From assembly GCA_947462875.1 (NCBI GenBank), contig CANHQJ010000023.1, positions 1 through 64,000 on the forward strand: a stretch of DNA of 64,000 nucleotides. The letters run 5' to 3'. Under the pieces are notes generated by a model, which did no database searches, was not told the DNA's origin, and saw nothing but the letters and a program-made list of their open reading frames with translations. This document shows positions 97-64,000 of the stretch, piece after piece. The stretch comes from Verrucomicrobiia bacterium (GTDB taxonomy: Bacteria; Verrucomicrobiota; Verrucomicrobiia; Verrucomicrobiales; Akkermansiaceae). How positions within the stretch are numbered: the first letter of the stretch is position 1; each line of letters begins with the position of its first letter. The position numbers and the translations under genes were made by a program.

Positions 97-116
97 TTGT
101 CATGTCGACATGACAA
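97..116. repeat. Perfect 20-bp palindrome over the integrase stop codon
   Basis: The 20 bases read the same on both strands, centred on TCGA at 105-108. The palindrome contains the last codons and the stop of the leftmost integrase. It has no T-run, so it is a poor candidate for an intrinsic terminator. It could be a protein-binding site or chance. Confidence 0.4.
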
Positions 117-1389
117 GTGCCTTGATGCGCTCCTTGACCGTCCGCGGTACTTCGCTCGGTTTCCAGTCTGTGGGAGGGGTGATCGAGAACCAGGCTTTTG
201 CCGACTCCGCATCGACGATCTCCCGGTAGTGGCGAAAGATCATTTTCGGGGAGTTGCCAGCCTCCAGAGAGGTTCGCGCTACGTCTCCAGTCTCGGCTAC
301 CCGATAGCTGATGAATGAGTGCCTGAGGGCATTCTGACGCCATCCACCGGGGATCTGTGCTTTGACGGCGGTATCGCTCAAGGCACCCGAGTAGTCTGTG
401 ATGGTGAGGATCGGCCCTGTATCCTCACGCCATGGGGCGAGCCATGCCTTTAGATTTTCGGAAAGCGGCACCAGTCGCCGTGCTGCGGTCTTTGCCTTGC
501 TTCCTGCTATCTCGATGTGCCCTCGATCCCACTTGATGTCTTTCCAGTCCAGTCTCGCGATTTCTGCTGACCGGATGCCGGCGAATCCGCCGATGGCAAT
601 CAGGGGCAGGATGCGTGGATGGGCTGCGAGTAGCAGGCGTTTCATTTCTTCTGGCGTGAAAATCGAGATTTCCTTATCCTGCACTTTGAACGAATCGCTT
701 TGTTCCGCAGCAGTCTTGCGGTCCGGGTGGAGGTATCCTTGTCTTTTGGCGAATCCAAACATGGTGACGAGGTTGCGACGGATGCCATTCTTGCTCACTG
801 GACCCAATTTTTTGAGTCCGTCGAGAAAACGGTTGATGTCGGCTGTCGTCACATCCGCGATGTTGCCGGGGAGCGCATCGCTGTACCGTTTTAGATTCAG
901 CGTTGCGTGACGGACATAGAGGTCGCTCACGCCTTTTCGTTTGAGCGACTCGATGAACTCAGCGGCGACTTTGGCATTGCTGCGGGTGGCAAACAGATCG
1001 TTGCGGTTTGCGGCGTAGAAACGAACGGCATCGGAGAGGGGGATTTCTCCCGCCGTGCGCCTGGCACTGGCCCATTCCTCAATCGCGGCAGCGAGGGTCA
1101 CGCCAAATTCACTGGCTGTGCGCTCGCAGTATTGGAGAAGCTCGATGTCGCGGCGGGTAGCTTCGCAGGTGGCCGAGCTGCCATTCGTGAGGCGGACGGT
1201 AATTTGTTGAGCAATCATTTTGGCCTCGTCCATGGATGAGATACAGCGCGTGCGCCGTCGGCCTCCTTCTCTCCATGCGAGGGTGAACTGCTCGTAACCG
1301 TCCTTGCGGTTGATGGTGTAAATCCGGACTACGGCAACCCCTGTGCCGATTTCCACGATTGAACTGCGACGTTTGCGTTTGCGGGTCAT
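100..1389 (-). CDS. Tyrosine recombinase / site-specific integrase
   Basis: Phage-type integrase of the tyrosine recombinase family, which cuts and rejoins DNA at attachment sites. The C-terminal catalytic domain shows the first Arg in GIRSAEIARLDW, a Lys in the GSKAKTAARR hairpin, and the box II Arg in NALRHSF, where Asn stands at the usual first His. A Tyr in FRHYREIVD is the likely nucleophile. The middle third looks like a SAM-like core-binding domain. I chose ATG at 1389 (429 aa, basic start MTRKRKRR). An upstream in-frame ATG at 1470 would add 27 residues of non-basic sequence. The gene begins about 120 bp from a 61-bp tRNA-Ser repeat at 1506 and reads away from it, so it probably belongs to an element extending off the left edge. 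Family assignment is firm; the start is uncertain. Confidence 0.85.
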   Translation of the reverse strand: MTRKRKRRSSIVEIGTGVAVVRIYTINRKDGYEQFTLAWREGGRRRTRCISSMDEAKMIAQQITVRLTNGSSATCEATRRDIELLQYCERTASEFGVTLAAAIEEWASARRTAGEIPLSDAVRFYAANRNDLFATRSNAKVAAEFIESLKRKGVSDLYVRHATLNLKRYSDALPGNIADVTTADINRFLDGLKKLGPVSKNGIRRNLVTMFGFAKRQGYLHPDRKTAAEQSDSFKVQDKEISIFTPEEMKRLLLAAHPRILPLIAIGGFAGIRSAEIARLDWKDIKWDRGHIEIAGSKAKTAARRLVPLSENLKAWLAPWREDTGPILTITDYSGALSDTAVKAQIPGGWRQNALRHSFISYRVAETGDVARTSLEAGNSPKMIFRHYREIVDAESAKAWFSITPPTDWKPSEVPRTVKERIKALVMST

Positions 1390-1505
1390 AGACCCCGGCG
1401 TTCGCGTCAACTTGTGTGGATTTGTGTGTGGAAAATCTGTCGCGGTTTCCGTCAGATTGCCGCTATCCATTGCGCAGCATGGACTGGCTGGATTTCTCCT
1501 AGAAG

Positions 1506-1566
1506 ATGGCGGAGAAGGTGGGATTTGAACCCACGGTGAGTATTACCCCACGTCCGATTTCGAATC
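1506..1566. repeat. 61-bp direct repeat of tRNA-Ser 3' part (attachment site, left)
   Basis: Bases 1506-1566 are identical to 7074-7134, the 3' portion of the intact tRNA-Ser gene including its CCA. Identity stops after GAATC; here TGACGC follows in place of the rest of the tRNA. A partial tRNA copy beside integrase genes is the classic mark of attL/attR made by tRNA-targeting integrases. The repeat lies between two integrase genes pointing away from it. Confidence 0.85.
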
Positions 1567-1751
1567 TGACGCAAGAGCCAAAAACCATTGGTATATATAG
1601 AACAAAAAATAAGAGAAAGAGATAAAATACGCATTTGATTGACTTTTTAGGTGAATAAGGCAAGTTTTCACCAAGTTTCCTGACGAAATAAAAAATGGTG
1701 CGGGACAGCGATTGATCCAGCTCCCTTAACTTATTAACTCATTGAAAATCC
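1567..1751 (+). promoter_or_regulatory. Leader of island integrase with a 12-bp motif
   Basis: This AT-rich 185-bp gap lies between the att repeat and the integrase start. It contains TTATTAACTCAT at 1731-1742, ending 9 bp before the ATG. The same 12 bases recur at 3596-3607, just upstream of the island HTH gene. This could be a shared operator or excisionase site. I see no convincing -35/-10 pair. Confidence 0.3.
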
Positions 1752-2960
1752 ATGGCTAAACCTATCCGATTCACTCCGAAAAACAGCGATTCAGGCTGGC
1801 GCATCAATATCCCTGCTAAGATCAGCGAGACAGGAAAGCGCCAGCAGCTATTCTACCGCACCCAAAAGCTCGCCCTAGCCGCCGCTGACGACCTGAAAAA
1901 GAAGGTGGAAATCTTCGGTGTTCAAACCCGTGCCATCGCACCTACTCTTGCCGAGCAGGCAACCGCTGCCGCCGCGCTCCTGAAGCCCTACGGCATCGGC
2001 TTGCTGGAAGCCGCCCGAATCGTCGCCGCCATGCGCGAGCGGGAAACTGCATCACGCACTCTATCAGAAGCCGCCGCCGTCTGGCTGGCTTCATGTGAAG
2101 GTCTAAGACCACGAACTATCAACAACTACAAGATCACAGCCACAAAGTTGGAAAGAGCACTGGGTGACCGCCTACTTGCCTCTATCACGGCGGAAGAGTT
2201 GCAAGCCGTCATTGCTCCCATAGGCAGAGCAGGCGCAGCCGTAATGGCGGAGTTTCGAAATGCTAAGGCATTCTGGCGCTACTCAGCAAGGAAGGGCTGG
2301 TGCCAGGTCGAGACTTTCGGCGGGGTGGAGGCTCCTAAATCCAACCGGGATGAGCAGGAAATCGCGATTCTCACCCCCACAGAGTGTGAAATCTTGCTAC
2401 GCACCGCAGAAACCCATTTCCCGCAAGCCGTATCCTTGTTCGCAATGCAACTCTACGCCGGAATTCGTGTGGAGGAAATCACCCGCATAGAAGCGATACA
2501 TGTCACCGACGATGGGATCGACCTCCCTGCTACTGTTACCAAGAAAGGCCGCCGCCGTCACATTACGCCAAATAAGACCCTTGCCGCATGGCTGGCTAAG
2601 TATCCTTTCGCGCCTTGTCCTAACTGGCGTGAAACATCCGCCGCCGTTCGCCGTCTCGCCGGGTGGGACGTGGTTTCCGTAATCCTAAATGAACGGATAC
2701 GCGTGAAATCCATGAAACCTCTGCCAAAGCCATCACGAGGACGCTGGCCACAGAATGCATTGCGGCACTCTCATGCATCCTACGCCGTCGCGTCTGGTGT
2801 CCCGCTGGAAAGCCTGCTTTTCGAGTTTGGACACGCTGGCAACCATACCCTGTTGCGGCAGCACTACGTTGGCAGGGCGAGCAAGAAGCAGGCGCTTGAA
2901 TTCTTTTCTATCGCTCCCCAAGGCGTGAAAATCCCACGAAAACTGGAGGTAGTAGCATGA
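1752..2960 (+). CDS. Tyrosine recombinase / island integrase
   Basis: Integrase of the 5.6-kb tRNA-Ser island (402 aa). The catalytic domain is recognisable from the Arg of YAGIRVEEITRIE, the basic TKKGRRRH hairpin, the NALRHSHASY box II (again Asn in place of the first His), then GHAGNHTLLRQHY, where His and Tyr supply the last two active-site residues. The N-terminal part has an AP2-like or arm-binding look (MAKPIRFTPKNS), followed by a SAM-like core-binding region around residues 90-180. It is related to, but clearly divergent from, the integrase at 100-1389. Its stop overlaps the next start by four bases (ATGA), so the two genes are probably translationally coupled. Confidence 0.88.
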   Translation: MAKPIRFTPKNSDSGWRINIPAKISETGKRQQLFYRTQKLALAAADDLKKKVEIFGVQTRAIAPTLAEQATAAAALLKPYGIGLLEAARIVAAMRERETASRTLSEAAAVWLASCEGLRPRTINNYKITATKLERALGDRLLASITAEELQAVIAPIGRAGAAVMAEFRNAKAFWRYSARKGWCQVETFGGVEAPKSNRDEQEIAILTPTECEILLRTAETHFPQAVSLFAMQLYAGIRVEEITRIEAIHVTDDGIDLPATVTKKGRRRHITPNKTLAAWLAKYPFAPCPNWRETSAAVRRLAGWDVVSVILNERIRVKSMKPLPKPSRGRWPQNALRHSHASYAVASGVPLESLLFEFGHAGNHTLLRQHYVGRASKKQALEFFSIAPQGVKIPRKLEVVA

Positions 2961-21911: not shown

Positions 21912-22232
21912 TCACGCCAAGGCGAGCAATTTCGCTTTCAACTGGTCCTTGGTAACGTTGGCACCGACGATCTGGTCCTTCACTTCGCCATTTTGGAAAA
22001 ATAGCAAAAACGGGATCGAGCGCACACCATATTTCACGGCCAATTCACGGGCGTTATCCACATTGACCTTGCCCACTTTCGCCTGGCCCGCGACATCGTC
22101 GGCGAGTTGATCGATGATGGGACCGATCGCCTTGCAGGGACCGCACCATTCGGCCCAGAAATCAACGAGAACAGGAACGGAGGAGTCGATGACTTCCGCT
22201 TGGAAATTGGATTCAGTAAGTAAGAGTGCCAT
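21912..22232 (-). CDS. trxA: Thioredoxin
   Basis: A 106-aa thioredoxin, the disulfide reductant of the cytoplasm. Active site FWAEWCGPCKAIGP, buried charged residues in VGKVNVDNA, and the cis-Pro in VRSIPFLLFF are all present. I chose ATG 22232 (MALLLTESNF), which gives normal length; an ATG at 22247 would add five residues. The gene has its own strong terminator. Confidence 0.93.
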   Translation of the reverse strand: MALLLTESNFQAEVIDSSVPVLVDFWAEWCGPCKAIGPIIDQLADDVAGQAKVGKVNVDNARELAVKYGVRSIPFLLFFQNGEVKDQIVGANVTKDQLKAKLLALA

Positions 22233-22311
22233 GCGCGGAACATGCACGCGGAACCGGCATCCGTCAAGAGTCCCGATAGAAAAAATGAACTCCGTGGGCG
22301 GAAACCATCGC

Positions 22312-23097
22312 TTAGAAAAACCAAGTCAGGCCGGTCTTCCACTTGCAGTCGAACGATTCGGAGGAGAGCGGAGCTTCGCCACCAAGGGACCAGGCATACT
22401 GACGATCTTTGCCGAAAATGCGGGTAGCGCTGTATTCCAAGCGCTGCCTGTCGCTCTCCTGCAGGAGATTCCAGCGATGGTTGAAACTGACAAATGCGGA
22501 CCAATCGTGATTGATGCGAAAGATCAGCGGAAGCTTGACTTCCCAGGCACTGACATCGTGCGATCCTTCTTCCCGCGGCGTGAAATTGTATTCCATATTG
22601 ATGCCAAGCGTGAGCGATTCATGAGCATCCCACCGTAATCCCGCGATCGGCCGCAAGACAAGGGCGCTATCACCCAAAAGAGGAGCAGAGGCGGTATCGA
22701 GGACCGCATTCAAGGCAAGCCCGTACCGGATCTGGGGGGAAAAGCGTCCCATCAGCCCAGCCCGCAACTCGAGGTCACCGAAGCCCTCCGCATCTTCCTC
22801 AGCCGCATCCGCCCATTTAAGAGGCAGCAAGGCCTGAAAACCGAAGGCCAGATCCTCGCGCACGGGAATGCCCCAGCGCAGGGAGTTTTCGATGACGAAA
22901 AAATCCGAACCGTTGTCAAAACGCTCCCCACTGAACTCGGATAAAAACCGGCTGGACAACAAGGTGGAGTCATAGCGCTCCAGCCAGGCGCGATCGGGCT
23001 GGAACAACCGACCATCGGGAACCGCTGCTTGCAAGAGACAGCCTGTGCCGCAAACTGCGGCGATCAGAGAGGCGATGCGCGAAGTGGACGATTTCAT
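22312..23097 (-). CDS. Putative outer-membrane beta-barrel protein
   Basis: A 261-aa protein with a signal peptide (SRIASLIAAVCGTGCLLQAA) and alternating beta-strand character (LTLGINMEYNFTPREE, WSAFVSFNHRWNLL), ending in an aromatic residue (GLTWFF) as outer-membrane barrel proteins often do. It resembles the transporter-type barrels annotated in Verrucomicrobia as hypothetical. I chose ATG 23097, since the longer frame to 23250 would cross a terminator. No partner gene gives a function. Confidence 0.6.
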   Translation of the reverse strand: MKSSTSRIASLIAAVCGTGCLLQAAVPDGRLFQPDRAWLERYDSTLLSSRFLSEFSGERFDNGSDFFVIENSLRWGIPVREDLAFGFQALLPLKWADAAEEDAEGFGDLELRAGLMGRFSPQIRYGLALNAVLDTASAPLLGDSALVLRPIAGLRWDAHESLTLGINMEYNFTPREEGSHDVSAWEVKLPLIFRINHDWSAFVSFNHRWNLLQESDRQRLEYSATRIFGKDRQYAWSLGGEAPLSSESFDCKWKTGLTWFF

Positions 23098-23143: not shown

Positions 23144-23175
23144 AAAAAAAGCGATGTTGGCACACCGCTTTTTTT
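23144..23175. terminator. Bidirectional-looking terminator
   Basis: AAAAAAAGCG (23144-23153) pairs with CGCTTTTTTT (23166-23175), a perfect 10-bp stem. On the minus strand it ends the transcript carrying the 27-residue ORF, and it separates that transcript from the barrel gene. Confidence 0.75.
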
Positions 23176-23250: not shown

Positions 23251-23334
23251 TCAGACGATCGGAGCCATCCAAGTGAGGATGGCAATCGCGAGTGCGCCTG
23301 CGCCGAGAAGGATATTGATGATGGGAAGTGCCAT
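23251..23334 (-). CDS. 27-residue single-pass membrane peptide
   Basis: A short frame reading MALPIINILLGAGALAIAIL and then TWMAPIV, ATG at 23334 and TGA at 23253-23251. It is almost wholly hydrophobic with a Gly/Ala-rich centre, fit for one membrane helix. It follows the Pro/Ala-rich membrane protein gene by 43 bp and is followed by a strong terminator, and its start context TTACCATT-ATG matches that of two BMC shell genes. This supports a real small gene. No family is recognised. Confidence 0.55.
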   Translation of the reverse strand: MALPIINILLGAGALAIAILTWMAPIV

Positions 23335-23377
23335 AATGGTAAGAAGTAAGGAGTGGTTTGGTTCGTTGGGCAAGTGA

Positions 23378-24076
23378 TCAGAACAACTGGTTCCAGCCTT
23401 CCCAGAGCGAGATGGTCATGCACTGGAAGGCCAGCACGGCGCAAGCGGCGAGGAAACCGAAGATCGAAAGCACGGTTGTCATGGTGTCCGATCCGGCATC
23501 CTCTTCGTCTTCGGCTTGGAAGGTGGCCATTTGTGTGGCGGAGACAGAACCCGTGATCATCGGTTGCGTCGGCGGAGCCAACTGCACGGTGGCCTTCGGC
23601 AGAGCCACGGTGTTACCGGGAAGCGGAGGCGTCATCGGCTTGGTGGCAGGGCCAGCCAGACCGGGCATGGGACCAGCGGTCTTCAGTGGCACGGTAGGAG
23701 CACCTGTGGAGGAGCCGGTGTTGAGTTTGATCGTAGGAGCCGGCGCAGGACGAGCCATGGGGCCGGCGGTTTTGAGAGGAATGGTAGGTGCCGGAGCGGG
23801 TGCGCTGCTGGTAGCACTGGGAACGCTAGGCGCGGGCACAGTTGCCATAGGAGCAGTCGCCACTGGGGGACGCACCATCGGCGCGGTGGGTGACGGTGGC
23901 TTGGGAGCGACGGGAGGAGCTGGCGGCGCGGTGGGCGCGGTGGGCGGAGCCACGGGTGTCACGGCAGCGGAAGGTGCCGCAGGTGCGTCACTGGCTTTCA
24001 ATGTCACGCGCACGGTTTCCTTTTTCAAAGGAATGCTGGAAGTCTGCTTGGATGGTGTGTTTTGGTCGTCACTCAT
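23378..24076 (-). CDS. Pro/Ala-rich protein with C-terminal membrane anchor
   Basis: A 232-aa protein whose residues 25-165 are a low-complexity Pro/Ala/Thr stretch with repeated units such as TIPLKTAGPM, TIKLNTGSS and TVPLKTAGPM. An acidic patch (EDEEDAG) comes before a C-terminal hydrophobic helix (MTTVLSIFGFLAACAVLAF) and a short aromatic tail. This is the layout of a tail-anchored, disordered cytoplasmic protein. I know no function. It shares a transcript with the 27-residue membrane peptide. Confidence 0.65.
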   Translation of the reverse strand: MSDDQNTPSKQTSSIPLKKETVRVTLKASDAPAAPSAAVTPVAPPTAPTAPPAPPVAPKPPSPTAPMVRPPVATAPMATVPAPSVPSATSSAPAPAPTIPLKTAGPMARPAPAPTIKLNTGSSTGAPTVPLKTAGPMPGLAGPATKPMTPPLPGNTVALPKATVQLAPPTQPMITGSVSATQMATFQAEDEEDAGSDTMTTVLSIFGFLAACAVLAFQCMTISLWEGWNQLF

Positions 24077-24161: not shown

Positions 24162-26543
24162 TCAGCGGAAAACCACGGCCAATTCCTTGACCAGTGTCTC
24201 CAGCACCTGCTTGTGCGCGGCATCCACTTCTTCGTTTTTGAGCGTGCGGTCGCTGGCGCGGTAATGGAAGCGGTAGGCGATGGATTTTTTCGCCACATCG
24301 AGCTTCTGCCCGGTGGGATCGGTGAACACATCGAAGCATTCGAAGTGCTGCAAGAGCGACTGACCCGCCTTGGCGATGGCTTTGTCGATCTCCGCTGCCG
24401 GGAGTGATGCCGCCACTTCCATCGCCGCATCGCGCGAGCTGCCGGGGAACTGCGGAAGTTCTTCCACCACCCGACGCCGACCCAGCCACTTGCGCACTTT
24501 GGTCAGGTCCAACTCGACGAGCCAGACGGGATGGGCGAAATCGAGTTCGCGCTCGCGTGCAGGGCGGAGACGAGCGGCCACGCCGAGGTTGCTATCGCCA
24601 CCTGTCACATCGCAGGCCAGCACGAATCCCTCGCGCTCGCGCGGCGTGAACTGGAGCGGGCAGCCCGGCAGGATGGCTTGCAAGGCGGCTTTCAGATCGT
24701 GAACGGTCGCCACCGCAGGCGCGGCGGACCAGCTTTCGGGAGCGACAGGACCGGAGAGCAGAAGGGCGATCGACTCGCTTTCCAGATCACGGGCTTTGCC
24801 ACCGCCGTTATGACGGAAAACACGACCCATTTCAAAAAAACGAAGGGATTTCAGACCTTGGCGCACGTTGCGCTCGGCCGTGGCGATGAGCCCGGGCACC
24901 AGACTGGGGCGCAGCACGGCGTGGTCTTCGCTGAGCGGCAGACTGACGGCCACGAGATCGCCGTTTTGCAAGGGACGCAGCGGCAAGGCATCGACGAGTT
25001 GTTTTTCAGCAATGAGTTTGATCGTTTGCGCTTCGAAGAATCCCAGGGCCGCGAGCGAACGACGGAGATTCATGTCGAGGTCGGCGGCGGCATCGATGTC
25101 GCTGGCGGGCACAAAGGTCGCTCTCATGCGCGAAGGCACTTTGTCGAGACCATGGACCCGCGCGATTTCTTCCACCAGATCGATGTGGCGTTGCAGGTCG
25201 GCGCGGCGGCTGGGGACGCGCCAGAGATTTTCGCCCACGGCGCTCAGACCGAGACGTAGCAAGATGTTTTCCGCCGCGGCCAGCTCGATGCTGCCGCCCA
25301 TGAGTTGATCGAGCCGCGCGGTATCGAGCTCCACCACACCCGTCAGCACAGGCAGCGAGCCGACCACCGCCGTCTCGCCCTCGATCTGGCCACCGGCGAT
25401 TTCGAGAATGAGCTGGATGGCACGCGCCGCCGCAGGCAGAACGCCTTCGGGATCGACGCCGCGCTCGAAGCGATAGGAAGAGTCGCTGCTCAACAGATGT
25501 GCGCGCGAGGTGGAACGCACCAAGGTCGGTGTGAAATACGCCGATTCTAACAAAATATCGGTGGTCGTGGCAGTGACACCGCTGGTGGCCCCGCCCATGA
25601 TGCCGGCGAGCGCCAGCACTTCGCCACGGTCATCGGAAATGACCAGATCGCCCTCGCGCAGTGCATAGCTGGATCCGTTCAACGCGGCAAAAGATTCGTC
25701 CGCTTTCGCGCCGCGCAGGTGCATGCGCACACCGACTTGTGCGGCATCGAAGGCGTGCAGCGGCTGCCCCATTTCGTGCAGCACGAAATTGGTGATATCG
25801 ACAATGTTATTGATCGGACGCAGGCCGATCGATACGAGCCGCTCCTTCAACCAGTCCGGGCTGTCCTGAACCGTCACGCCGGAAATTTTCGTCAGTGAAT
25901 AAAACGGACACGCTTCCTCCGCATCGTTTTCGATCCACTCGCTGCCGCAGCGCGTCGGCAGGGCGGGCAATTCCAGCGTCTGATGCTCTTGCTCCAACAA
26001 GGCCGCCAATTCATACGCAAGACCTCGGTGGCTGAGCAGATCCGGGCGATTCGGCGTGACCTCCACTTCTAACAAAACGTCCGATGCAAAAAGCTGCTTC
26101 ACCGGTGTGCCCACGGCGGGATCGCCTTGCAAAAGGAGCAAGCCGTTTACCTGATCCGGGACGCCGATCTCCGAACCAGAGCAAAGCATGCCCTTCGATT
26201 CCACGCCGCGCATTTTCGTCTCGCCGATCGTGAAGCCGCTGGGCAGCGCCGCACCGGGCAGGGCGCAGGGCACCTTGTCGCCGACCTTGTAATTTTGCGC
26301 GCCGCAAACGATTTGCCGCAGAGTCCCCTCCCCCGCATCCACTTGCGTGACCTTGAGACGATCGGCATTCGGGTGCTGCACAGCCTCCATGATCTGCGCC
26401 ACGACCACCTTGTCCGAGCTCACGCCCTTGGTGTGGATGCCTTCGATTTCGATGCCCGCAAAGGTCAACAAATCATCCAACTCCTGCACCGACTTCCCGG
26501 CAAGATCCACATACTCACTCAACCAATTCAACGAGACATTCAT
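24162..26543 (-). CDS. pheT: Phenylalanine-tRNA ligase beta subunit
   Basis: Beta chain of the alpha2-beta2 PheRS (793 aa). The order of domains is complete: an EMAP-type tRNA-binding domain at about 39-150 (KVTQVDAGEGTLRQIVCGA), the B3/B4 editing domain around 205-370, B5 around 395-465, a catalytic-like core, and the C-terminal FDX-ACB anticodon-binding domain (FDVFTDPTGQ, SIAYRFHYRASDRTL). It lies 20 bp after pheS on the same strand. Confidence 0.96.
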   Translation of the reverse strand: MNVSLNWLSEYVDLAGKSVQELDDLLTFAGIEIEGIHTKGVSSDKVVVAQIMEAVQHPNADRLKVTQVDAGEGTLRQIVCGAQNYKVGDKVPCALPGAALPSGFTIGETKMRGVESKGMLCSGSEIGVPDQVNGLLLLQGDPAVGTPVKQLFASDVLLEVEVTPNRPDLLSHRGLAYELAALLEQEHQTLELPALPTRCGSEWIENDAEEACPFYSLTKISGVTVQDSPDWLKERLVSIGLRPINNIVDITNFVLHEMGQPLHAFDAAQVGVRMHLRGAKADESFAALNGSSYALREGDLVISDDRGEVLALAGIMGGATSGVTATTTDILLESAYFTPTLVRSTSRAHLLSSDSSYRFERGVDPEGVLPAAARAIQLILEIAGGQIEGETAVVGSLPVLTGVVELDTARLDQLMGGSIELAAAENILLRLGLSAVGENLWRVPSRRADLQRHIDLVEEIARVHGLDKVPSRMRATFVPASDIDAAADLDMNLRRSLAALGFFEAQTIKLIAEKQLVDALPLRPLQNGDLVAVSLPLSEDHAVLRPSLVPGLIATAERNVRQGLKSLRFFEMGRVFRHNGGGKARDLESESIALLLSGPVAPESWSAAPAVATVHDLKAALQAILPGCPLQFTPREREGFVLACDVTGGDSNLGVAARLRPARERELDFAHPVWLVELDLTKVRKWLGRRRVVEELPQFPGSSRDAAMEVAASLPAAEIDKAIAKAGQSLLQHFECFDVFTDPTGQKLDVAKKSIAYRFHYRASDRTLKNEEVDAAHKQVLETLVKELAVVFR

Positions 26544-57434: not shown

Positions 57435-58493
57435 TCACTTCAAGCCCGCCATGATCTGGTCGGTGATGGCTTTGACCAGGGCCTCGGCATCGGCGTTGGT
57501 GGAGTCATCGTTTTTCGGCGCGGGGCCGCCGATGCTGCAAACCGTCCCGGGACGGAAGTCGGCGTTGTCGCAGAGCTCGCACTCTTTCCAGTTGGCGCGC
57601 TTGTCGTCCATGCCCAGCACTTTGCGCAGGGCGATGAGTTCTTTGGCTTGGCCGCCGGTGATCGTAAGAAGGTTGCCACCGTTGAGTTGCGAGGCGACCC
57701 AGACGGTTTTGCAATACGACTCGACGTTCTCCATTTTCCAATAGGCATCCTCGATGTCTTTGCCCCAGGTGATGACGCCGTGATTGACCATCAGCACGGC
57801 CATGTGATCGACGGCGGCATTGCCCACGACTTCGGCGTTCGCGGGAGTGCCGGGGGTGCGGTATTCCGCCATGCCGATTTGGCCGAGGAAGACTTCCGCT
57901 TCGGGAATCATGCAAGTCGGCGGTTGCACACCGGCGACGGCGAAAGCGGTGCCGTGCGGTGGGTGGGCGTGGCAGCAGGCTTTTGCCTTGGGCTGACGCT
58001 TCATGATCGCAAGGTGCGTCATGCACTCGGAAGTGCGCTTGAATTTTCCGGCGAGCTGATTGCCCTCCAGATCGACGAGACCCATTTGCTCTACCGTCAT
58101 GAAACCTTTCGAAACGAGAGTCGGTGTGCAGAGCACGAGGTTGTCGCCAACGCGGATGGTGAGGTTGCCGCCGTTGCCATCGGTGTATTCGCGCGCCCAC
58201 ATGCGTTGGCCGATCTCGACCATGCGCTCCTTGAGTTTGGTGATGGCGGGCGAATGGAAAAATGCCTCGATCTCCGCGGGAGTTTTCGGGTCTTTGCCGG
58301 GCGTCCAATGGTATTCGTAGTCAGGCAAGATCGGATCGACTTTTTTCGGAGTGGCGGCACTGACACCATACGATTTGTTGGCGCTACCGAACACATCTTT
58401 TGCGGCAGGCGTGACGACGGCTCCGGCGGGGATGGTGATGTTGCCACTGCGGATCATGGCTTCGGCGTCGGCGGCGGTGATGACTTTTTTCAT
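57435..58493 (-). CDS. Class II aldolase of the microcompartment (fuculose/rhamnulose-1-P)
   Basis: A zinc-dependent class II aldolase/adducin-family enzyme (352 aa), which would cleave fuculose- or rhamnulose-1-phosphate to DHAP and lactaldehyde. GGNLTIRVGD, the catalytic-Glu segment RTSECMTHLAI, zinc ligands in CHAHPPHGTAFA, and VNHGVITWGKD are visible. It is about 130 residues longer than FucA, mostly an N-terminal region (AADAEAMIRSGN) that could include a compartment-targeting helix, plus a Cys-containing C-terminal part (ECELCDNADF). Last gene of the BMC operon. Confidence 0.88.
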   Translation of the reverse strand: MKKVITAADAEAMIRSGNITIPAGAVVTPAAKDVFGSANKSYGVSAATPKKVDPILPDYEYHWTPGKDPKTPAEIEAFFHSPAITKLKERMVEIGQRMWAREYTDGNGGNLTIRVGDNLVLCTPTLVSKGFMTVEQMGLVDLEGNQLAGKFKRTSECMTHLAIMKRQPKAKACCHAHPPHGTAFAVAGVQPPTCMIPEAEVFLGQIGMAEYRTPGTPANAEVVGNAAVDHMAVLMVNHGVITWGKDIEDAYWKMENVESYCKTVWVASQLNGGNLLTITGGQAKELIALRKVLGMDDKRANWKECELCDNADFRPGTVCSIGGPAPKNDDSTNADAEALVKAITDQIMAGLK

Positions 58494-58518
58494 AATCGTT
58501 TGTTAGGGTAAAAATTCG

Positions 58519-58830
58519 TTAGTGGGAAGAAGGATAGGGAGTGTAATCAATCTGGTCGAAAATCGCGATGCACAGCGCATCGATGGGGATGGGAGAGGCA
58601 AAGGGCGCGGTGGCTTCGGCACCTTCGGAAAAACCGATGATGTCGCCCTCGCCGGCGCCGATGTTATCAAACACCACCAACGACGACTGCGCGGTGACGG
58701 TTTGTTTTTTGGTGCAAGCCTGCGACAACTGCGCGGCATCGAGCGGATTGACAATCAGCCAACGGCCGCCCACGAGCGCAGGATCCTGCACACTCATGAC
58801 GGTTTTGCCGATGACTTGTCCGATTCTCAT
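58519..58830 (-). CDS. BMC-P shell vertex protein (EutN/CcmL family), copy 3
   Basis: A 103-aa pentameric shell protein that caps microcompartment vertices. MRIGQVIGKTVMSVQ, GGRWLIVNPLD, VVFDNIGAGEGDIIGFSEG and ALCIAIFDQID are the usual EutN/CcmL strands. Start overlaps the preceding BMC-P stop by four bases (ATGA). Confidence 0.92.
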   Translation of the reverse strand: MRIGQVIGKTVMSVQDPALVGGRWLIVNPLDAAQLSQACTKKQTVTAQSSLVVFDNIGAGEGDIIGFSEGAEATAPFASPIPIDALCIAIFDQIDYTPYPSSH

Positions 58831-59102
58831 ATCGCGGCTGGTTGTTTTTCATCGATGATGCCCTGCACAAACATGCGGATGGGCGAGGTATCATCGTCCA
58901 CGAGATGACGCGCACCAAGACCATCCGTGCTCACGAGCACCCGCTCATGCAGTCCGGCACCGAACAGATCAATCGCCACGAACGGCGCGCCGATCATCGC
59001 ATCCTCATCGCCAAGCTGCTGGCAAAGCAACAGCTTCTTGCCGCTCAGCGAGCGGTGGCAGTGGGTGGCAACGGCATTGCCTACGATGCGACAGACGAGC
59101 AT
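58827..59102 (-). CDS. BMC-P shell vertex protein (EutN/CcmL family), copy 2
   Basis: A 91-aa shell pentamer protein, the shortest and most divergent of the three: MLVCRIVGNAVATHCH, SGKKLLLCQQL, FVAIDLFGAGLHERVLVSTDG, in part AIDLFGAGLHERV. The usual Gly-Ala-Gly-x-Gly-(D/E) turn is changed to GAGLHE. It starts 15 bp after the dehydrogenase gene and is coupled to copy 3. Confidence 0.88.
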   Translation of the reverse strand: MLVCRIVGNAVATHCHRSLSGKKLLLCQQLGDEDAMIGAPFVAIDLFGAGLHERVLVSTDGLGARHLVDDDTSPIRMFVQGIIDEKQPAAI

Positions 59103-59117
59103 GATCGGGTGCGCTTG

Positions 59118-60581
59118 TTAGATGATGTGAAGGTTGTCCACGAGCACGCAGCGGCGCACGCGGGTGAAGGTTTTCGGAGTGGTGATGCCTTCGCCCGTGG
59201 TGGTGGCGATGGAGTAGGAAAGGTAACCCTCGCCACCAAGTCCGAGACCGGCGGTGCTGGGACCGTTTTTCACAAAAATCGTGGTGTCCATTTCCTTCGC
59301 CATCGCCGTCATGTTATCGACGTTGCGGGTGTGGATCATCGCGGAGTGGCGGTAGTTGTGCTCGGCCTGTTTGGCGTGTTTCACGGCCGTGGAGAAGTCG
59401 GGGCAGGCGACGATGGGAATCATCGGCATCATTTGCTCTTCTTGCACGAAGGGATGATCGGCGCTGGTTTCGCCGAACAAAATCGGCGCGCTGCTGGAAA
59501 CATTCGCACCGGCATGGCGGGCGAGCACGGCGGGATCGGCACCGATCAAATCGCGATTCACCGCCGCATGCGAGCAGCCGCCATCGGTTTCCTTATAGGT
59601 GAAAGCGGCCTTGGTGAGGGAATCGATCTGCGCGGCGTTGAGGCGGGCGGCACCGGCTTTTTCCAATTCTTCCATGAAGCGATTGAACACCGAACCAACG
59701 ACAAAAACGGCTTTTTCGCCGATGCACAGGAGATTGTTATCGAAGCCACCGCCCTCGATGACGCTGCGCGCGGCTCTGGCGAGATCGGCGGAGTCATCGA
59801 CGACAACCGTCGGATTGCCTGGTCCCGCGCAAATGGAGCGCTTGCCGGATTTCATCGCGGCGCTCACGACGGCAGGTCCGCCGGTGATGGCAAGCAAGGG
59901 AATCTGTTCGTTTTTGCAGATGAGGTTGAACGAGTCCAAGGTCGGCTGCTCGATGCAGGTGATGAGATTCGAGATGCCCAGTTCGCGTTCGATCGCTTTG
60001 TTGTATTCGCGCACGGCCATCGCCGCACTGCGAGCGCCACCGGGGTGCGGATTGAAAACGATCGCATTGCCCGCAGCGACCATGCTGATGACATTGCCCG
60101 TGAGTGTCGGCACCGAGTGCGTGACGGGAAGGATGGCACCGATCACACCGAAGGGCGCGAATTCTTCCATCATGATGCCGCCATCGCCGCTCATCGCATC
60201 GGGGCGCAGGTATTCGACACCAGGAACATTTTTCGTGATCAGCAACTTGCCGATCTTGTGATCGACACGGCCGATCTTCGTCTCTTCCATCTCAAACTTG
60301 CCCCATGGCTCGGCATTCGCCACGGCAAGAGTTTTGACAATCTCAATGACCTTGGCCCGCGCGCCGATGCCGGCTTTTTTCAATTTCAGGTGGGCGTGAT
60401 GAGCGGCATCAGCGGCTTTGTCGACGCAAGTGAAAACGCCGTAATTGCCATCCGAACCGGCGCAGCCACAGCCGCAGCCATCTTTTTTCGGAGCAGGCGC
60501 GGCAGCAGTCACATTCGCCGCAGCCAGGCGCGAAAGCACGCTTTCCACCACGGACTGGATTTGTTTTTGATCGAGAGTCAT
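59118..60581 (-). CDS. CoA-acylating aldehyde dehydrogenase (PduP-like)
   Basis: Microcompartment aldehyde dehydrogenase (487 aa), expected to oxidise lactaldehyde to lactyl-CoA with NAD+. Residues 4-22 (QKQIQSVVESVLSRLAA) form an amphipathic helix like BMC encapsulation peptides, followed by an Ala/Pro linker and an unusual Cys/Gly cluster (KKDGCGCGCAGSDG). The catalytic domain has NPHPGGARSA, ITGGPAVV, and the nucleophile Cys in FDNNLLCIGEKAVFVV. It lies between BMC-P copies 1 and 2. Confidence 0.92.
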   Translation of the reverse strand: MTLDQKQIQSVVESVLSRLAAANVTAAAPAPKKDGCGCGCAGSDGNYGVFTCVDKAADAAHHAHLKLKKAGIGARAKVIEIVKTLAVANAEPWGKFEMEETKIGRVDHKIGKLLITKNVPGVEYLRPDAMSGDGGIMMEEFAPFGVIGAILPVTHSVPTLTGNVISMVAAGNAIVFNPHPGGARSAAMAVREYNKAIERELGISNLITCIEQPTLDSFNLICKNEQIPLLAITGGPAVVSAAMKSGKRSICAGPGNPTVVVDDSADLARAARSVIEGGGFDNNLLCIGEKAVFVVGSVFNRFMEELEKAGAARLNAAQIDSLTKAAFTYKETDGGCSHAAVNRDLIGADPAVLARHAGANVSSSAPILFGETSADHPFVQEEQMMPMIPIVACPDFSTAVKHAKQAEHNYRHSAMIHTRNVDNMTAMAKEMDTTIFVKNGPSTAGLGLGGEGYLSYSIATTTGEGITTPKTFTRVRRCVLVDNLHII

Positions 60582-60600
60582 GAGAAGTTTGTTTTGAGTG

Positions 60601-60640
60601 ATCTGTCAGATTTGACTGATCAGACGTATCGGTCTGATCA
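60601..60640 (-). promoter_or_regulatory. Intercistronic hairpin before the aldehyde dehydrogenase
   Basis: TGATCAGAC (60617-60625) pairs perfectly with GTCTGATCA (60632-60640) around a 6-nt loop; the outer arm contains the stop of BMC-P copy 1. Next to it ATCTG-T-CAGAT (60601-60611) is a second perfect palindrome. No T-run follows. Possible RNA processing, stability or binding site. Confidence 0.6.
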
Positions 60641-60946
60641 TTGGTTTTTATAAACCGTAGTCCCCAGCACCTCCACGCGGTCAACGATGGCGACTACGGC
60701 GGCATCGACGGGGACGGGTTTGAGGTCGCCGGCTTGACGGGCACTGCTGCCCTGGCAGAACAACACCAACTCCCCCACCCCGGCACCCACGGTGTCGATG
60801 GCGACGACCGTGTTCTGGCCGTTCTTGAATTGTTTGTTGTCCTTTTCGTCCACGAGTTTGGGACGGAGAATCAGGAGCTTGCGGCCCGTGAGATGCTCGT
60901 CTTTTTTCGTGGCCACGACCTGACCGATGACTTCCGCGAGAAACAT
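60638..60946 (-). CDS. BMC-P shell vertex protein (EutN/CcmL family), copy 1
   Basis: A 102-aa pentamer protein: MFLAEVIGQVVATKKDEHL, GRKLLILRPKLVDE, VAIDTVGAGVGELVLFCQGSS (in part IDTVGAGVGELVLF) and AAVVAIVDRVEV match the family closely. Hairpins stand on both sides of this gene, at 60971-60996 upstream and 60601-60640 downstream. Confidence 0.93.
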   Translation of the reverse strand: MFLAEVIGQVVATKKDEHLTGRKLLILRPKLVDEKDNKQFKNGQNTVVAIDTVGAGVGELVLFCQGSSARQAGDLKPVPVDAAVVAIVDRVEVLGTTVYKNQ

Positions 60947-60970
60947 ACGATTTTTTCGTTAGGGAAAGCA

Positions 60971-60996
60971 CGCTCGCCACGACATCGCGGCGAGCG
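60971..60996 (-). promoter_or_regulatory. GC-rich hairpin between BMC-H copy 3 and BMC-P copy 1
   Basis: CGCTCGCC (60971-60978) pairs perfectly with GGCGAGCG (60989-60996) around a 10-nt loop, 12 bp after the BMC-H stop. It has no T-run on the transcribed strand, so it is more likely a stability or processing element than a terminator. Confidence 0.55.
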
Positions 60997-61008
60997 CGGC
61001 TTCACCGG

Positions 61009-61311
61009 TTACTTGCGAGGAGCGCGGGCGGCGGCGTCTTTCGGCAGAACACCTTCGATCGCGTCGTCAGGACGGGCGATGACATGAGCGCTCACCACTT
61101 CACCACAGCTGCTGGCAGCGGCGGCTCCGGTGTCGATCGCGGCTTTGACAGCAGCGACGTCGCCGGTGATGACAGCGTTGCAGAGAGCGCTGCCGACTTG
61201 TTTCATCGGACCGGCGAGTTCGATGTTTGCGGATTTGAGCATCGCGTCAACGCCGACGACGAGGCAGGCGAGCCCGCGTGTTTCCAATAGTCCTACTGCT
61301 TGTTTAGCCAT
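61009..61311 (-). CDS. BMC-H hexameric shell protein, copy 3
   Basis: A 100-aa BMC-domain protein tiling the shell facets: AVGLLETRGLACLVVGVDAM, LKSANIELAG, ITGDVAAVKAAIDTGAAAA and VVSAHVIARPDDAIEGVLP follow the family pattern. It has a short basic C-terminal extension (KDAAARAPRK) not found in the two other copies. Start ATG 61311 lies after ACTAACGAAACACACAT. Confidence 0.95.
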   Translation of the reverse strand: MAKQAVGLLETRGLACLVVGVDAMLKSANIELAGPMKQVGSALCNAVITGDVAAVKAAIDTGAAAASSCGEVVSAHVIARPDDAIEGVLPKDAAARAPRK

Positions 61312-61357
61312 ATGTGTGTTTCGTTAGTTGTTGATGATTGTTTGAGAAAAAGTTTGT

Positions 61358-62542
61358 TTACGAGAGAGAAGAAATTTTGCGATATACTTCGCGGGCGAGC
61401 ACGAGCTCTTCGTTTGCGGGAATGACGAAAACTTTGACGCGTGAATGATCCGCCTGCAATTCCGCTTCGACAGCGCGACAGGCGGCATTGCGTTGTTCGT
61501 CGAGAACGAGGCCGAACTCTTCCAGCCCCGCGCAAACGGCGGCGCGGAGTTCCCTGCCATTTTCGCCGATGCCCGCGGTAAAGACCAGCGCATCGAGCCC
61601 GCCCATTTGCCAGGCAAAGGCACCGACCCAGTGACGGATCGAATCAATGAGGTGATCGATCGCGAGAGTCGCGTTGGCATTGCCCGCTTGGCTGGCTTCG
61701 TTGATATCGCGGATGTCATTGCTGACACCCGATAGACCGAGCAAGCCCGAGTCTTTCGTGAGTTGGCGCTCCGCTTCTTCGAGCGTGAGGCCCAGCGTTT
61801 TCATCGCGTAGGGAATCGCACCCGAGTCGAGATCGCCAACGCGGTTGTTTTGCGGCAGTCCGCTTTGCGGCGAAAATCCCATGCTGGTGCCGATGGCTAC
61901 ACCGTTGAGAATGCCCGTGACCGAGCTGCTGCCACCGAGGTGGCAAGAGACAACACGCAGAGGTTTCCCAGTGATCGCGGCAGGGCCCTGTTGATAGAGT
62001 GCGGCCGTGCCGGCAGCGACTTCGTCACGGCCTAACAACTCAGCGGATCGCTCAGCGACGAATTTGTGGCTCGCACCGTGAAAGCCATAGCGCCTGATGC
62101 CCGCATCGCGCCAGGATTGCGGCAACGCATACGTGCTGCGGGCTTCCGGCACCCATTGGTAAAACGCGGTCTCGAACAAAGCGACGAGTTTTGCATTCGG
62201 CAACGATTGCGCGAACTGGCGGATGCCATTCGCATACGGCGGATTGTGCGCGGGGGCCACCGCGGCGAAATCTTCCAGCGCTTTCACGCAGGCATCATCC
62301 GCCAGCACACAGCCGCTGAGGTCTTTGCCGAGCACGGTTTTGAAGCCGACCGCATCGATCTCATCCGCCGAGGCGATCACGCCATCCTTTGTCAAGGTGG
62401 CAAGAGCATCCTCGATTACCGCCGCATAATCCGTCACGCGCTCATAGCCGCCTTTCGCCAAGACTTCCTGTCCCGTGGACTCCATGCGATAGAGACGGTA
62501 CTTGAAAGAGGTGGAACCGAGATTGGCGATGAGGACTAACAT
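61358..62542 (-). CDS. ackA: Acetate kinase-family enzyme
   Basis: Acetate/propionate kinase fold (394 aa). LIANLGSTSFKYRLYRM, GFHGASHKFVAE, VSCHLGGSSSVTGILNG, DSGLLGLSGVSNDIRDI and TAGIGENGRELRA are family signatures. In this operon it would convert lactyl-phosphate (or another acyl-phosphate from PduL) to the acid with ATP formation. The second codon is TTA (ATGTTAG). No N-terminal targeting helix is visible, so it may lie outside the shell. Confidence 0.94.
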   Translation of the reverse strand: MLVLIANLGSTSFKYRLYRMESTGQEVLAKGGYERVTDYAAVIEDALATLTKDGVIASADEIDAVGFKTVLGKDLSGCVLADDACVKALEDFAAVAPAHNPPYANGIRQFAQSLPNAKLVALFETAFYQWVPEARSTYALPQSWRDAGIRRYGFHGASHKFVAERSAELLGRDEVAAGTAALYQQGPAAITGKPLRVVSCHLGGSSSVTGILNGVAIGTSMGFSPQSGLPQNNRVGDLDSGAIPYAMKTLGLTLEEAERQLTKDSGLLGLSGVSNDIRDINEASQAGNANATLAIDHLIDSIRHWVGAFAWQMGGLDALVFTAGIGENGRELRAAVCAGLEEFGLVLDEQRNAACRAVEAELQADHSRVKVFVIPANEELVLAREVYRKISSLS

Positions 62543-62587
62543 GAAAATGCTGAAATTCTGAAATGCTGAGAAGCTGAAGCGGGGTGA

Positions 62588-62866
62588 TTACCCGATCCAG
62601 GTGCCGAGTTTGCTGAGGTCGTCGTGCGGACGGGCGATCACTTGCACCGAAGTCACTGTGCCGACATTGGCAGCAGCGGCGGCGGCGGCATCGAGACCTG
62701 CTTTCACAGCAGCGACGTTGCCCGTGAAAAATCCGGTCACCAGACCCGAGCCGATCTTGTCCCATCCGGTCATTTGGATGTCGGCGGATTTCAAGGCGGC
62801 GTCAGCTCCTTCGATCAAAGCGATGAAGCCTTTGGTTTCAATAATTCCGATTGCTTGTTTGGCCAT
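62588..62866 (-). CDS. BMC-H hexameric shell protein, copy 2
   Basis: A 92-aa BMC domain: AIGIIETKGFIALIEGADAA, LKSADIQMTG, FFTGNVAAVKAGLDAAAAAA and VQVIARPHDDLSKL. The pore region near KIGSGLVTG differs from the other copies. It starts after CTCTAACAAACTACCATT with no SD, 28 bp after copy 1. Confidence 0.95.
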   Translation of the reverse strand: MAKQAIGIIETKGFIALIEGADAALKSADIQMTGWDKIGSGLVTGFFTGNVAAVKAGLDAAAAAAANVGTVTSVQVIARPHDDLSKLGTWIG

Positions 62867-62894
62867 AATGGTAGTTTGTTAGAGTGGTTGGAGA

Positions 62895-63167
62895 TTAAGC
62901 GATGCCGAGTTGCACGAGCAAGTCGTTGTGCGGGCGGGCGATCACGTGCGAGCCCACCAGTTCGCCTACGCGACCTGCGGCATCCGCACCTGCGGCTACG
63001 GCGGACTTCACGCTGCCGACATCGCCTTTGACGATGACGGTGAGAAAGCCACCACCGGTTTGAATTTGTTTAACGAGTTCGACATTGGCCGCTTTCGTCA
63101 TGGCATCGGTAGCCTCTACGCTGCCGACATATCCTTTGGTTTCGATGAATCCGAGTGCTGCACTCAT
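62895..63167 (-). CDS. BMC-H hexameric shell protein, copy 1
   Basis: A 90-aa BMC domain: ALGFIETKGYVGSVEATDAM, KAANVELVKQ, VIVKGDVGSVKSAVAAGADA and GSHVIARPHNDLLVQLG. Pore loop QIQTGGGFLT has three Gly. It is the first shell gene, 42 bp after pduL. Confidence 0.95.
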   Translation of the reverse strand: MSAALGFIETKGYVGSVEATDAMTKAANVELVKQIQTGGGFLTVIVKGDVGSVKSAVAAGADAAGRVGELVGSHVIARPHNDLLVQLGIA

Positions 63168-63209
63168 AATGGTATGTAGTTGATGGGAGTTGTTAGTTGG
63201 TTAGAAAAA

Positions 63210-63884
63210 TCATTTGATCAGTTCACAAAAAGTATCGGGCTTGAGACCGCAGGCATTGCCTTCATCGGTATCGATGTGCACCTCCAGCTTGAATGTGGGA
63301 TCGACACGCACGACGAGCTGATCGAAAGTCATCGCCAGCGGACCGTGGACTTTCAGCTTCATGGTATCGAGATGCTTCACGCCGTAAAAGGCCGCGTCAT
63401 CCGGATGCATGTGCACGTGCGGCTGGGCGCGGATGATGCCCTCTTTCATTTCAAAATAACCGTGCGGCCCCATCAGCATGCCGCCGGGAGTGCCCGCGAT
63501 GTCGCCGGACATTTTCACGGGGATATCGAAGCCCAGCGCGATGGAATCCGTGTAAGCGAGCTCGACCTGGTTCAAATTCCGACAAGGTCCGAGAATGCGG
63601 AGATTGGAAATCACACGGCTGCGAGGACCGATGAGAGTCACTGTTTCTTTCGCGGCGTATTGGCCGTGCTGATAGAGGTCCTTCATCGGCTTCAACTGGT
63701 AGCCGGGACCAAAGAGCGCCTCAACGGCTTCCTGCGTCAAATGGCAATGGCGAGCGCTGATATTCACCAGCAACTTGTTCGGTGCCTGACGCGGTGCAGG
63801 CTGCTTCATCGCGGCATACACCTGCTCGCGCACCAGCTGTTCGATCAAGTCTCGAGAAATCTTGGGTTGGGTTGAAGAGGACAT
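63210..63884 (-). CDS. pduL: Phosphotransacylase PduL
   Basis: Microcompartment phosphate acyltransferase (224 aa), moving the acyl group from CoA to phosphate and recycling CoA inside the shell. Residues 8-27 (ISRDLIEQLVREQVYAAM) look like an encapsulation helix. Two PTAC domains follow, with metal-binding His in NISARHCHLTQEAV and QPHVHMHPDDAA; GPRSRVISNLRILGP is also typical. I chose ATG 63884; the frame from 63986 adds an AT-rich stretch that overlaps the likely promoter. First gene of the operon. Confidence 0.93.
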   Translation of the reverse strand: MSSSTQPKISRDLIEQLVREQVYAAMKQPAPRQAPNKLLVNISARHCHLTQEAVEALFGPGYQLKPMKDLYQHGQYAAKETVTLIGPRSRVISNLRILGPCRNLNQVELAYTDSIALGFDIPVKMSGDIAGTPGGMLMGPHGYFEMKEGIIRAQPHVHMHPDDAAFYGVKHLDTMKLKVHGPLAMTFDQLVVRVDPTFKLEVHIDTDEGNACGLKPDTFCELIK

Positions 63885-63893
63885 CGACACGCC

Positions 63894-63922
63894 GAATTTC
63901 TTTGTTTTTTCGCTTTTGTCAA
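63894..63922 (-). promoter_or_regulatory. Candidate promoter of the BMC operon
   Basis: On the minus strand a perfect TTGACA (63922-63917) is followed after 17 bp by AAATTC (63899-63894), a weak -10. The resulting transcript would start only a few bases before the pduL ATG, nearly leaderless. TTTTGT-CA-ACAAAA (63914-63927) overlaps the -35 and could be an operator. The remaining bases to 64000 hold no gene I can support. Confidence 0.3.
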
Positions 63923-64000
63923 CAAAAAACCAGAAAAATCCAAATTTTTCCAAATCTCGGATCATTGCAGACCCGCGGATTGTCATGCGTGCGGAGCGGG

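Follow-up and report, generated by a model that had tools for sequence, protein, structure and literature searches.

A 27-residue hydrophobic peptide, encoded downstream of the gene for a Pro/Ala-rich, tail-anchored protein, is almost certainly a functional protein, and the two genes form, as far as the searches reach, an undescribed family that is kept across much of the order. At the family level, the peptide looks like an in-register, sequence-matched copy of the anchor helix of its larger neighbour; from the sequences, this likeness appears plain in family f2, clear at the level of profiles in f1, the family of the window, and marginal in f4. That the two helices are matched copies which assemble with each other is a reading we favor with modest confidence. 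The features of the locus within the window, i.e., the whole stretch of 64,000 nucleotides that was analysed, are listed in Table 1.

Table 1. Features of the locus, with positions in the window and the basis of each assignment.
Feature	Positions	Strand	Basis
Pro/Ala-rich tail-anchored protein, 232 aa from ATG	23378..24076	-	ORF list and homologues
N-terminal conserved motif TSSIPLKKETVRVTLK, residues 12-27	23996..24043	-	near-invariant columns in alignments A1 and A3
TIPLKTAGPM unit, residues 98-107	23756..23785	-	translation; member of the T-x-x-aliphatic set
TVPLKTAGPM unit, residues 128-137	23666..23695	-	translation; member of the T-x-x-aliphatic set
LPKATVQL motif, residues 159-166	23579..23602	-	near-invariant in A1/A3
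C-terminal anchor helix, residues 196-222	23411..23491	-	AlphaFold2 helix
27-residue hydrophobic peptide	23251..23334	-	27 codons plus stop, conservation, pN/pS
Terminator-like hairpin	23144..23175	-	fold -16.9 kcal/mol, z -5.6, transcribed strand
Outer-membrane-like ORF, between peptide and trxA	22312..23097	-	PF13557, E 0.00097, below its cut-off
trxA (thioredoxin gene), conserved neighbour	21912..22247	-	PF00085, 4e-30
pheT, upstream neighbour	24162..26543	-	Pfam domains, phenylalanyl-tRNA synthetase beta chain
pheS, upstream of pheT		-	name from position and translation alone

On the minus strand, pheS and pheT are followed by the ORF of 232 codons, the ORF of 27 codons, a terminator-like hairpin, an outer-membrane-like ORF and trxA. 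The small ORF begins 43 nt after the stop codon of the large one, and thus the tiny hydrophobic ORF 3' of the large gene is present as described in an earlier note, which was based on the sequence alone. An in-frame TTG start would extend it to 40 residues, and the aligned relatives begin at the ATG. The same note had reported a perfect 10-bp-stem terminator within 23251-24076. The hairpin is real, but its stem comprises 14 pairs and it is located outside that span, approximately 75 nt beyond the stop codon of the small ORF; since it is absent from the output of a consensus terminator scan, it is only likely to be a terminator. No Rfam family was matched at the gathering score between 22000 and 28000, and a reading of the locus as an RNA element was therefore rejected.

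The 27-residue peptide was evaluated in loci from three sources, i.e., 57 relatives (34 of which had a match), contigs of named genomes (best 80 of 154 loci) and a sample of the phylum. Removal of identical large proteins left 116 loci, and 114 after two loci that were cut by contig ends (L093 and L106) had been left out. In 97 of these 114 unique loci, a hydrophobic ORF of 19-33 residues, or of 55-95 in seven loci, begins 3-81 nt downstream of the large gene. This number includes 91 peptides recognized by a first filter and six with Gln at position 4 that were accepted by a looser rule; 90 of the 91 start with ATG, where the filter sought ATG and GTG alone. Conservation downstream of homologues of the large protein, which the earlier note had proposed as a check, is thus borne out in most loci. 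Broken frames, which the note had named as evidence against its proposal, are found in certain groups: the peptide is lost in all 12 loci of genus g3, probably Akkermansia proper, and in 18 of 31 loci of family f2, all of which retain the large protein. The 17 peptide-less loci among the 114 are the 12 of genus g3 plus L024, L063, L083, L100 and L103.

Codon evidence, also suggested in the note in the form of dN/dS, points to purifying selection on the small ORF. For 10 loci from the genus to which the window belongs, the pooled pN/pS of the peptide was 0.345, and in 37 independent close pairs it was 0.31, vs. 0.96 (sd 0.07, minimum 0.77 of 500) for random placement of the substitutions. The other two frames on the strand of the peptide gave values of 1.6 and 1.9. 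ORFs this short often arise by chance, and the loose filter did let through one spurious frame (L170). However, a pN/pS so far under the null value, together with the presence of the peptide in the large majority of loci, reduces a chance hydrophobic frame to a negligible probability, and this candidate was rejected on the codon evidence.

Several variations of the peptide were encountered. A Shine-Dalgarno-like sequence within 16 nt before its start was seen by eye in only two (L027 and L028) of the 29 loci inspected among L001-L030. Peptides are cut to 19 residues in L062, L066, L069 and L071, and the similar loci L063, L103 and L083 are without peptide, with L063 containing a decayed remnant that resembles it. 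In seven loci (L029, L047, L098, L102, L107, L109 and L117), the peptide carries an acidic tail of 30-70 residues composed of D, E, A and P, which brings its total length to 55-95 residues. In genus g3, where the peptide is absent, 10 of the 12 loci encode a large protein that has a similar acidic tail at its own C terminus. Because the two tails resemble each other, they hint that the C-termini of the peptide and the large protein may be located on the same side of the membrane.

All nine genomes of the same genus contain the large protein, and across the order it was detected in 235 of the 288 genomes that were sampled, and by genus in 45 of 50. In the phylum sample, it was matched in 38 of 387 genomes, 36 of these inside the order, and a DNA pattern for KKETVR was present in 35 of the 387. 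Among the loci read for this purpose (L213-L229 and L242), six Pro/Ala-rich relatives outside the order were recognized (L213 and L223-L227), none of which is accompanied by a convincing peptide; a 55-residue frame after L224 is unlike it. For families f2, f3, f4 and f6, 51 loci were chosen from the order-wide matches, and 47 of them had a large ORF, with near-identical ones kept (L203, L209, L180 and L210 had none and are outside the counts). The peptide was present next to the large gene in 28 of these 47 loci, i.e., in 13 of 31 in f2, 8 of 9 in f3, 5 of 5 in f4 and 2 of 2 in f6. No Pfam or NCBIfam family was found for either protein at E-values up to 1. No description of the pair was found in the literature on Verrucomicrobia and Akkermansia, as covered by titles and the beginnings of abstracts, and the pair is not named in the available part of the paper on the essential genome of V. 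spinosum (PMC12283558).

The sequence of the large protein agrees with the earlier description of a disordered protein with repeated (T)(I/V)PLKTAGPM units and a C-terminal helix. It contains two near-identical units, TIPLKTAGPM and TVPLKTAGPM, and looser versions of them, TIKLNT and TSSIPLKKET. AlphaFold2, run on an alignment of 35 rows, predicted a single helix without other notable secondary structure (mean pLDDT 55.7), and the protein is thus predicted to be disordered apart from its C-terminal helix. The best phmmer match among solved structures had an E-value of 0.051; it was attributed to Pro/Ala composition and rejected as a relative. The gene is single-copy, as its own genome gave no other match at E-values up to 10. 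No paralogues were detected there with the full protein, an N-terminal peptide, a DNA pattern or a profile, and the sole match of the DNA pattern for KET.R. in this genome is the N-terminal motif itself.

The likeness between the peptide and the anchor helix is most evident in family f2. In locus L197, the anchor VPFAIIVLIFALAVLAIEFLTYNVAK and the peptide MPFAIIVLLVSLAVLGLEIWTKMQAG are identical at 14 of 26 positions, and identities of 14/23 and 14/26 were found in L185 and L194, respectively. In all three, the peptide starts in register, one residue ahead of the anchor's Pro-Phe or Phe. When individual pairs were compared with shuffled peptides, with the spurious frame left out, p-values below 0.05 were obtained for 12 of 13 pairs in f2, 25 of 92 in f1, 3 of 10 in f3, 5 of 7 in f4 and 0 of 3 in f6. 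Profiles of peptides and of anchors, the latter aligned without the peptides, were further compared with column permutations, which preserve composition. The match had z-scores of 7.7 in f1 and 12.3 in f2, neither of which was reached in 5000 permutations, 3.6 in f4 and 10.4 when all families were aligned together, whilst no profile match was found in f3 and f6 (z 0.4 and -0.1, respectively). Compared with 262 unrelated TM segments, which were taken from mechanically called ORFs, some of them not real genes, the own anchor was among the best 1% for 11 of 13 peptides of f2; in the other families, it was among the best 5% for 28 of 92 peptides (f1), 7 of 10 (f3), 4 of 7 (f4) and 0 of 3 (f6). In the window itself, the match between peptide and anchor is not significant, with 26% of unrelated TM segments scoring at least as high, and the helix relation is therefore extended to this pair from its family.

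A further tail anchor, that of an unrelated protein with an FHA domain, scored z 2.6 against the peptide (reached by 38 of 3000 permutations), and z-scores near 3 should therefore not be over-read. The idea that this anchor could be a third helix copy was rejected, as its match with the peptide is weak and none was found with the large anchor (reached by 1227 of 3000 permutations). Recent gene conversion was rejected as well as a source of the helix likeness in f2, where peptide and anchor codons are identical at 38-87% of second positions and at only 27-54% of third positions. In genus g17 of f2, the peptide could conceivably have become fused into the anchor, but helices this short carry little information on that point.

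Within families, peptides fit the anchor of their own locus better than those of relatives. The average excess in score was 2.5 in f1, 5.4 in f2, 5.1 in f3 and 1.7 in f4, and it was reached by 0 of 150, 0 of 100, 0 of 100 and 2 of 100 position permutations, respectively. These permutations preserve composition and relatedness, and Ala was used to extend peptides of fewer than 24 residues. Between families, no preference for own-family anchors was found outside f2 among the peptides of f1, f3, f4 and f6 tested: their scores against f2 anchors vs. own-family anchors were 16.3/15.9 for f1, 19.7/18.6 for f3, 29.1/18.5 for f4 and 21.0/17.0 for f6. Matched evolution would be the expected outcome of helix packing, and slow concerted evolution is an alternative source of matching that is compatible with the data. 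Thus, the own-locus matching and the in-register likeness lend indirect support, short of proof, to the suggestion in the earlier note that the two membrane helices may assemble.

Other relations between the two helices were considered. The peptide could be an independent small membrane protein that merely shares an operon with the large protein and makes no helix contact, the likeness resulting from membrane constraints or an old duplication. The insignificant match of the pair in the window, the score of the unrelated FHA anchor, the lack of a profile match in f3 and f6 and the absence of own-family preference between families are all in line with this possibility, but the identities in f2, which run in register from the Met-Pro-Phe of the anchor onward, and an own-locus matching that beats the permutation controls in f1, f2, f3 and nearly f4 count against it, and it is considered unlikely. 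Equally improbable in our judgment is that the peptide is an inhibitory microprotein, which inserts in the scaffold bundle, caps or dilutes it and lowers the density of the tails. The evidence for a helix copy, i.e., the profile match and the own-locus fit, applies here as well, and the peptide can be lost while the large protein stays, which would suit an inhibitor; yet, dilution is not separable from stoichiometric co-assembly, and the conserved co-linearity of the genes suits both.

The Thr residues of the large protein are found in a distinctive context. In 119 non-redundant large proteins, 53% of the Thr residues have I, L, V or M at +3, compared with a background of 15% and with 14% for Ser. 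Aliphatic residues follow Thr at +1 in 36% of the cases and are depleted at +2 (5%) and +4 (6%). T-x-x-aliphatic sites were counted 1328 times vs. 374 expected by shuffling, with a median of 10 per protein. Outside two conserved core motifs, the +3 frequency is still 44%, and in 39 long ORFs of the window it is 23%. Counted over 161 proteins with redundancy kept, so that homology inflates the numbers, Thr occupies the motif position in KKE[T]xR in 146/146 cases, in PKA[T] in 152/153, in AP[T][IV]xL in 250/257 with no Ser, in [T][IV]PL after K in 58/58 and in [T]QPL in 80/87 with 5 Ser. The varied contexts of these motifs make a single inherited repeat less likely. FHA domains read phosphothreonine with a specificity that derives from the +3 position (PMC4157861). 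The Thr-only T-x-x-aliphatic set therefore looks as would be expected of phosphothreonine/FHA docking.

Hanks-type kinases were detected in all 57 relatives, 56 of them over the cut-off, and FHA domains in 56 of 57, with exactly one match in 25 of 35 genomes of the family and in 8 of 10 of the genus of the window. As both are common, their presence is weak evidence for docking. The only FHA match in the genome of the window is L257 (G000:C8:119199-119390). In all of ten chosen loci (L257-L266), the FHA domain was located, by eye, at the N terminus of the FHA protein and a hydrophobic segment at its C terminus; the one tested against Pfam matched FHA at 1e-13. To our knowledge, kinase signalling has been little studied in this phylum. 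Docking of FHA proteins by the large protein is regarded as possible, with a likelihood somewhat short of even. The repeats might instead be plain strand-forming or low-complexity linkers without phosphorylation, as the preference for aliphatic residues also at +1 gives them a strand-like alternation. However, at the five counted motif positions, Ser is limited to [T]QPL and Val is absent, and the motifs ETQRV and TQPL lack an aliphatic residue at +1, leaving the linker explanation rather doubtful.

Our best explanation as a whole, which we consider as evenly balanced between right and wrong, is a membrane scaffold with a short subunit that is built on the same helix. In this explanation, the approximately 195 disordered residues of the large protein would be located in the cytoplasm, a placement suggested because no signal peptide was seen, and one C-terminal helix would serve as the anchor. 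The peptide would be a free-standing copy of the anchor helix, most likely derived from an old partial duplication, and would probably be produced from one transcript together with the large protein. By packing with the anchor, it may set the size or the spacing of the assembly, acting as a structural filler or limiter. Anchor helices and free helix copies would thus form one bundle, from which the disordered tails display docking sites. The T-x-x-aliphatic sites may be phosphorylated by a Hanks-type kinase, and the phosphorylated tails may then serve as docking sites for proteins with an FHA domain, e.g., the tail-anchored one encoded in this genome. In its most specific form, i.e., an order-wide transmembrane microProtein that is matched to the anchor of its neighbour and tunes a phosphothreonine scaffold of about ten sites, for which a tail-anchored FHA protein is the reader, the proposal is tentative and on the doubtful side.

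Elements of this arrangement are known from other systems. In the twin-arginine translocase, TatA and TatB are proteins of different length that co-assemble and have one membrane helix each, the two helices being related; these are N-terminal and accompanied by an amphipathic helix. The present pair likewise comprises a small and a large protein with one helix each, and these helices appear related at the family level; in contrast, the larger of the two bears its helix at the C terminus here, and neither protein matched the Tat families of Pfam or NCBIfam at E-values up to 1. CydX, KdpF, AcrZ and MgtR are small membrane peptides, each of which is linked to a bigger membrane protein and in some cases encoded in its operon. 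The peptide resembles them in being encoded beside a larger membrane protein, whereas their partners are polytopic enzymes or pumps, and we know of none of this type that is a copy of the partner's own helix. The LITTLE ZIPPER proteins of plants are eukaryotic microProteins that consist of the partner's assembly domain alone, a soluble leucine zipper. The peptide would similarly be made up of only the putative assembly helix of its partner, but this is a bacterial transmembrane helix, encoded in tandem with the partner. By analogy, the pair would sit between the small membrane subunits and the microProteins. As to the tails, GarA/PknB is a phosphothreonine-FHA module, and in the case of TssL a Thr motif is read by an FHA domain in a membrane setting. 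Fha-TssL belongs to type VI secretion (PMC3953482). The large protein shares with both Thr motifs that appear suited to FHA reading; here, they are located on a disordered scaffold with a median of 10 such sites.

If correct, the proposed assembly would be a naturally occurring pair of single helices that has remained matched through evolution, with numerous variants in which membrane helix recognition could be tested. From the Thr-only motifs, a concrete peptide can be taken for tests against FHA proteins. Moreover, a pair that is kept over much of a bacterial order is yet without a Pfam or NCBIfam name.

The surroundings of the pair vary. The trxA gene is located on the same strand within 1.2 kb downstream in 61 of the 67 named loci with enough sequence; nevertheless, thioredoxin was rejected as a functional partner, as two protein alignments contained no conserved cysteines. 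The pheT gene is located upstream of the large gene, as in the window, in 7 of 69 named loci, and proS is divergent upstream of it in 24 of 69, which in these loci places the gene for a proline-rich protein divergent from that for prolyl-tRNA synthetase. Elsewhere in the window, positions 57435-63986 contain what we take, from the translations, to be aldolase-, aldehyde dehydrogenase-, acetate kinase- and PduL-like genes, which is suggestive of a bacterial microcompartment locus. Close to the start of the window (100-2960), two ORFs that are presumably integrase-like, named by their translations, possibly mark the edge of a mobile element.
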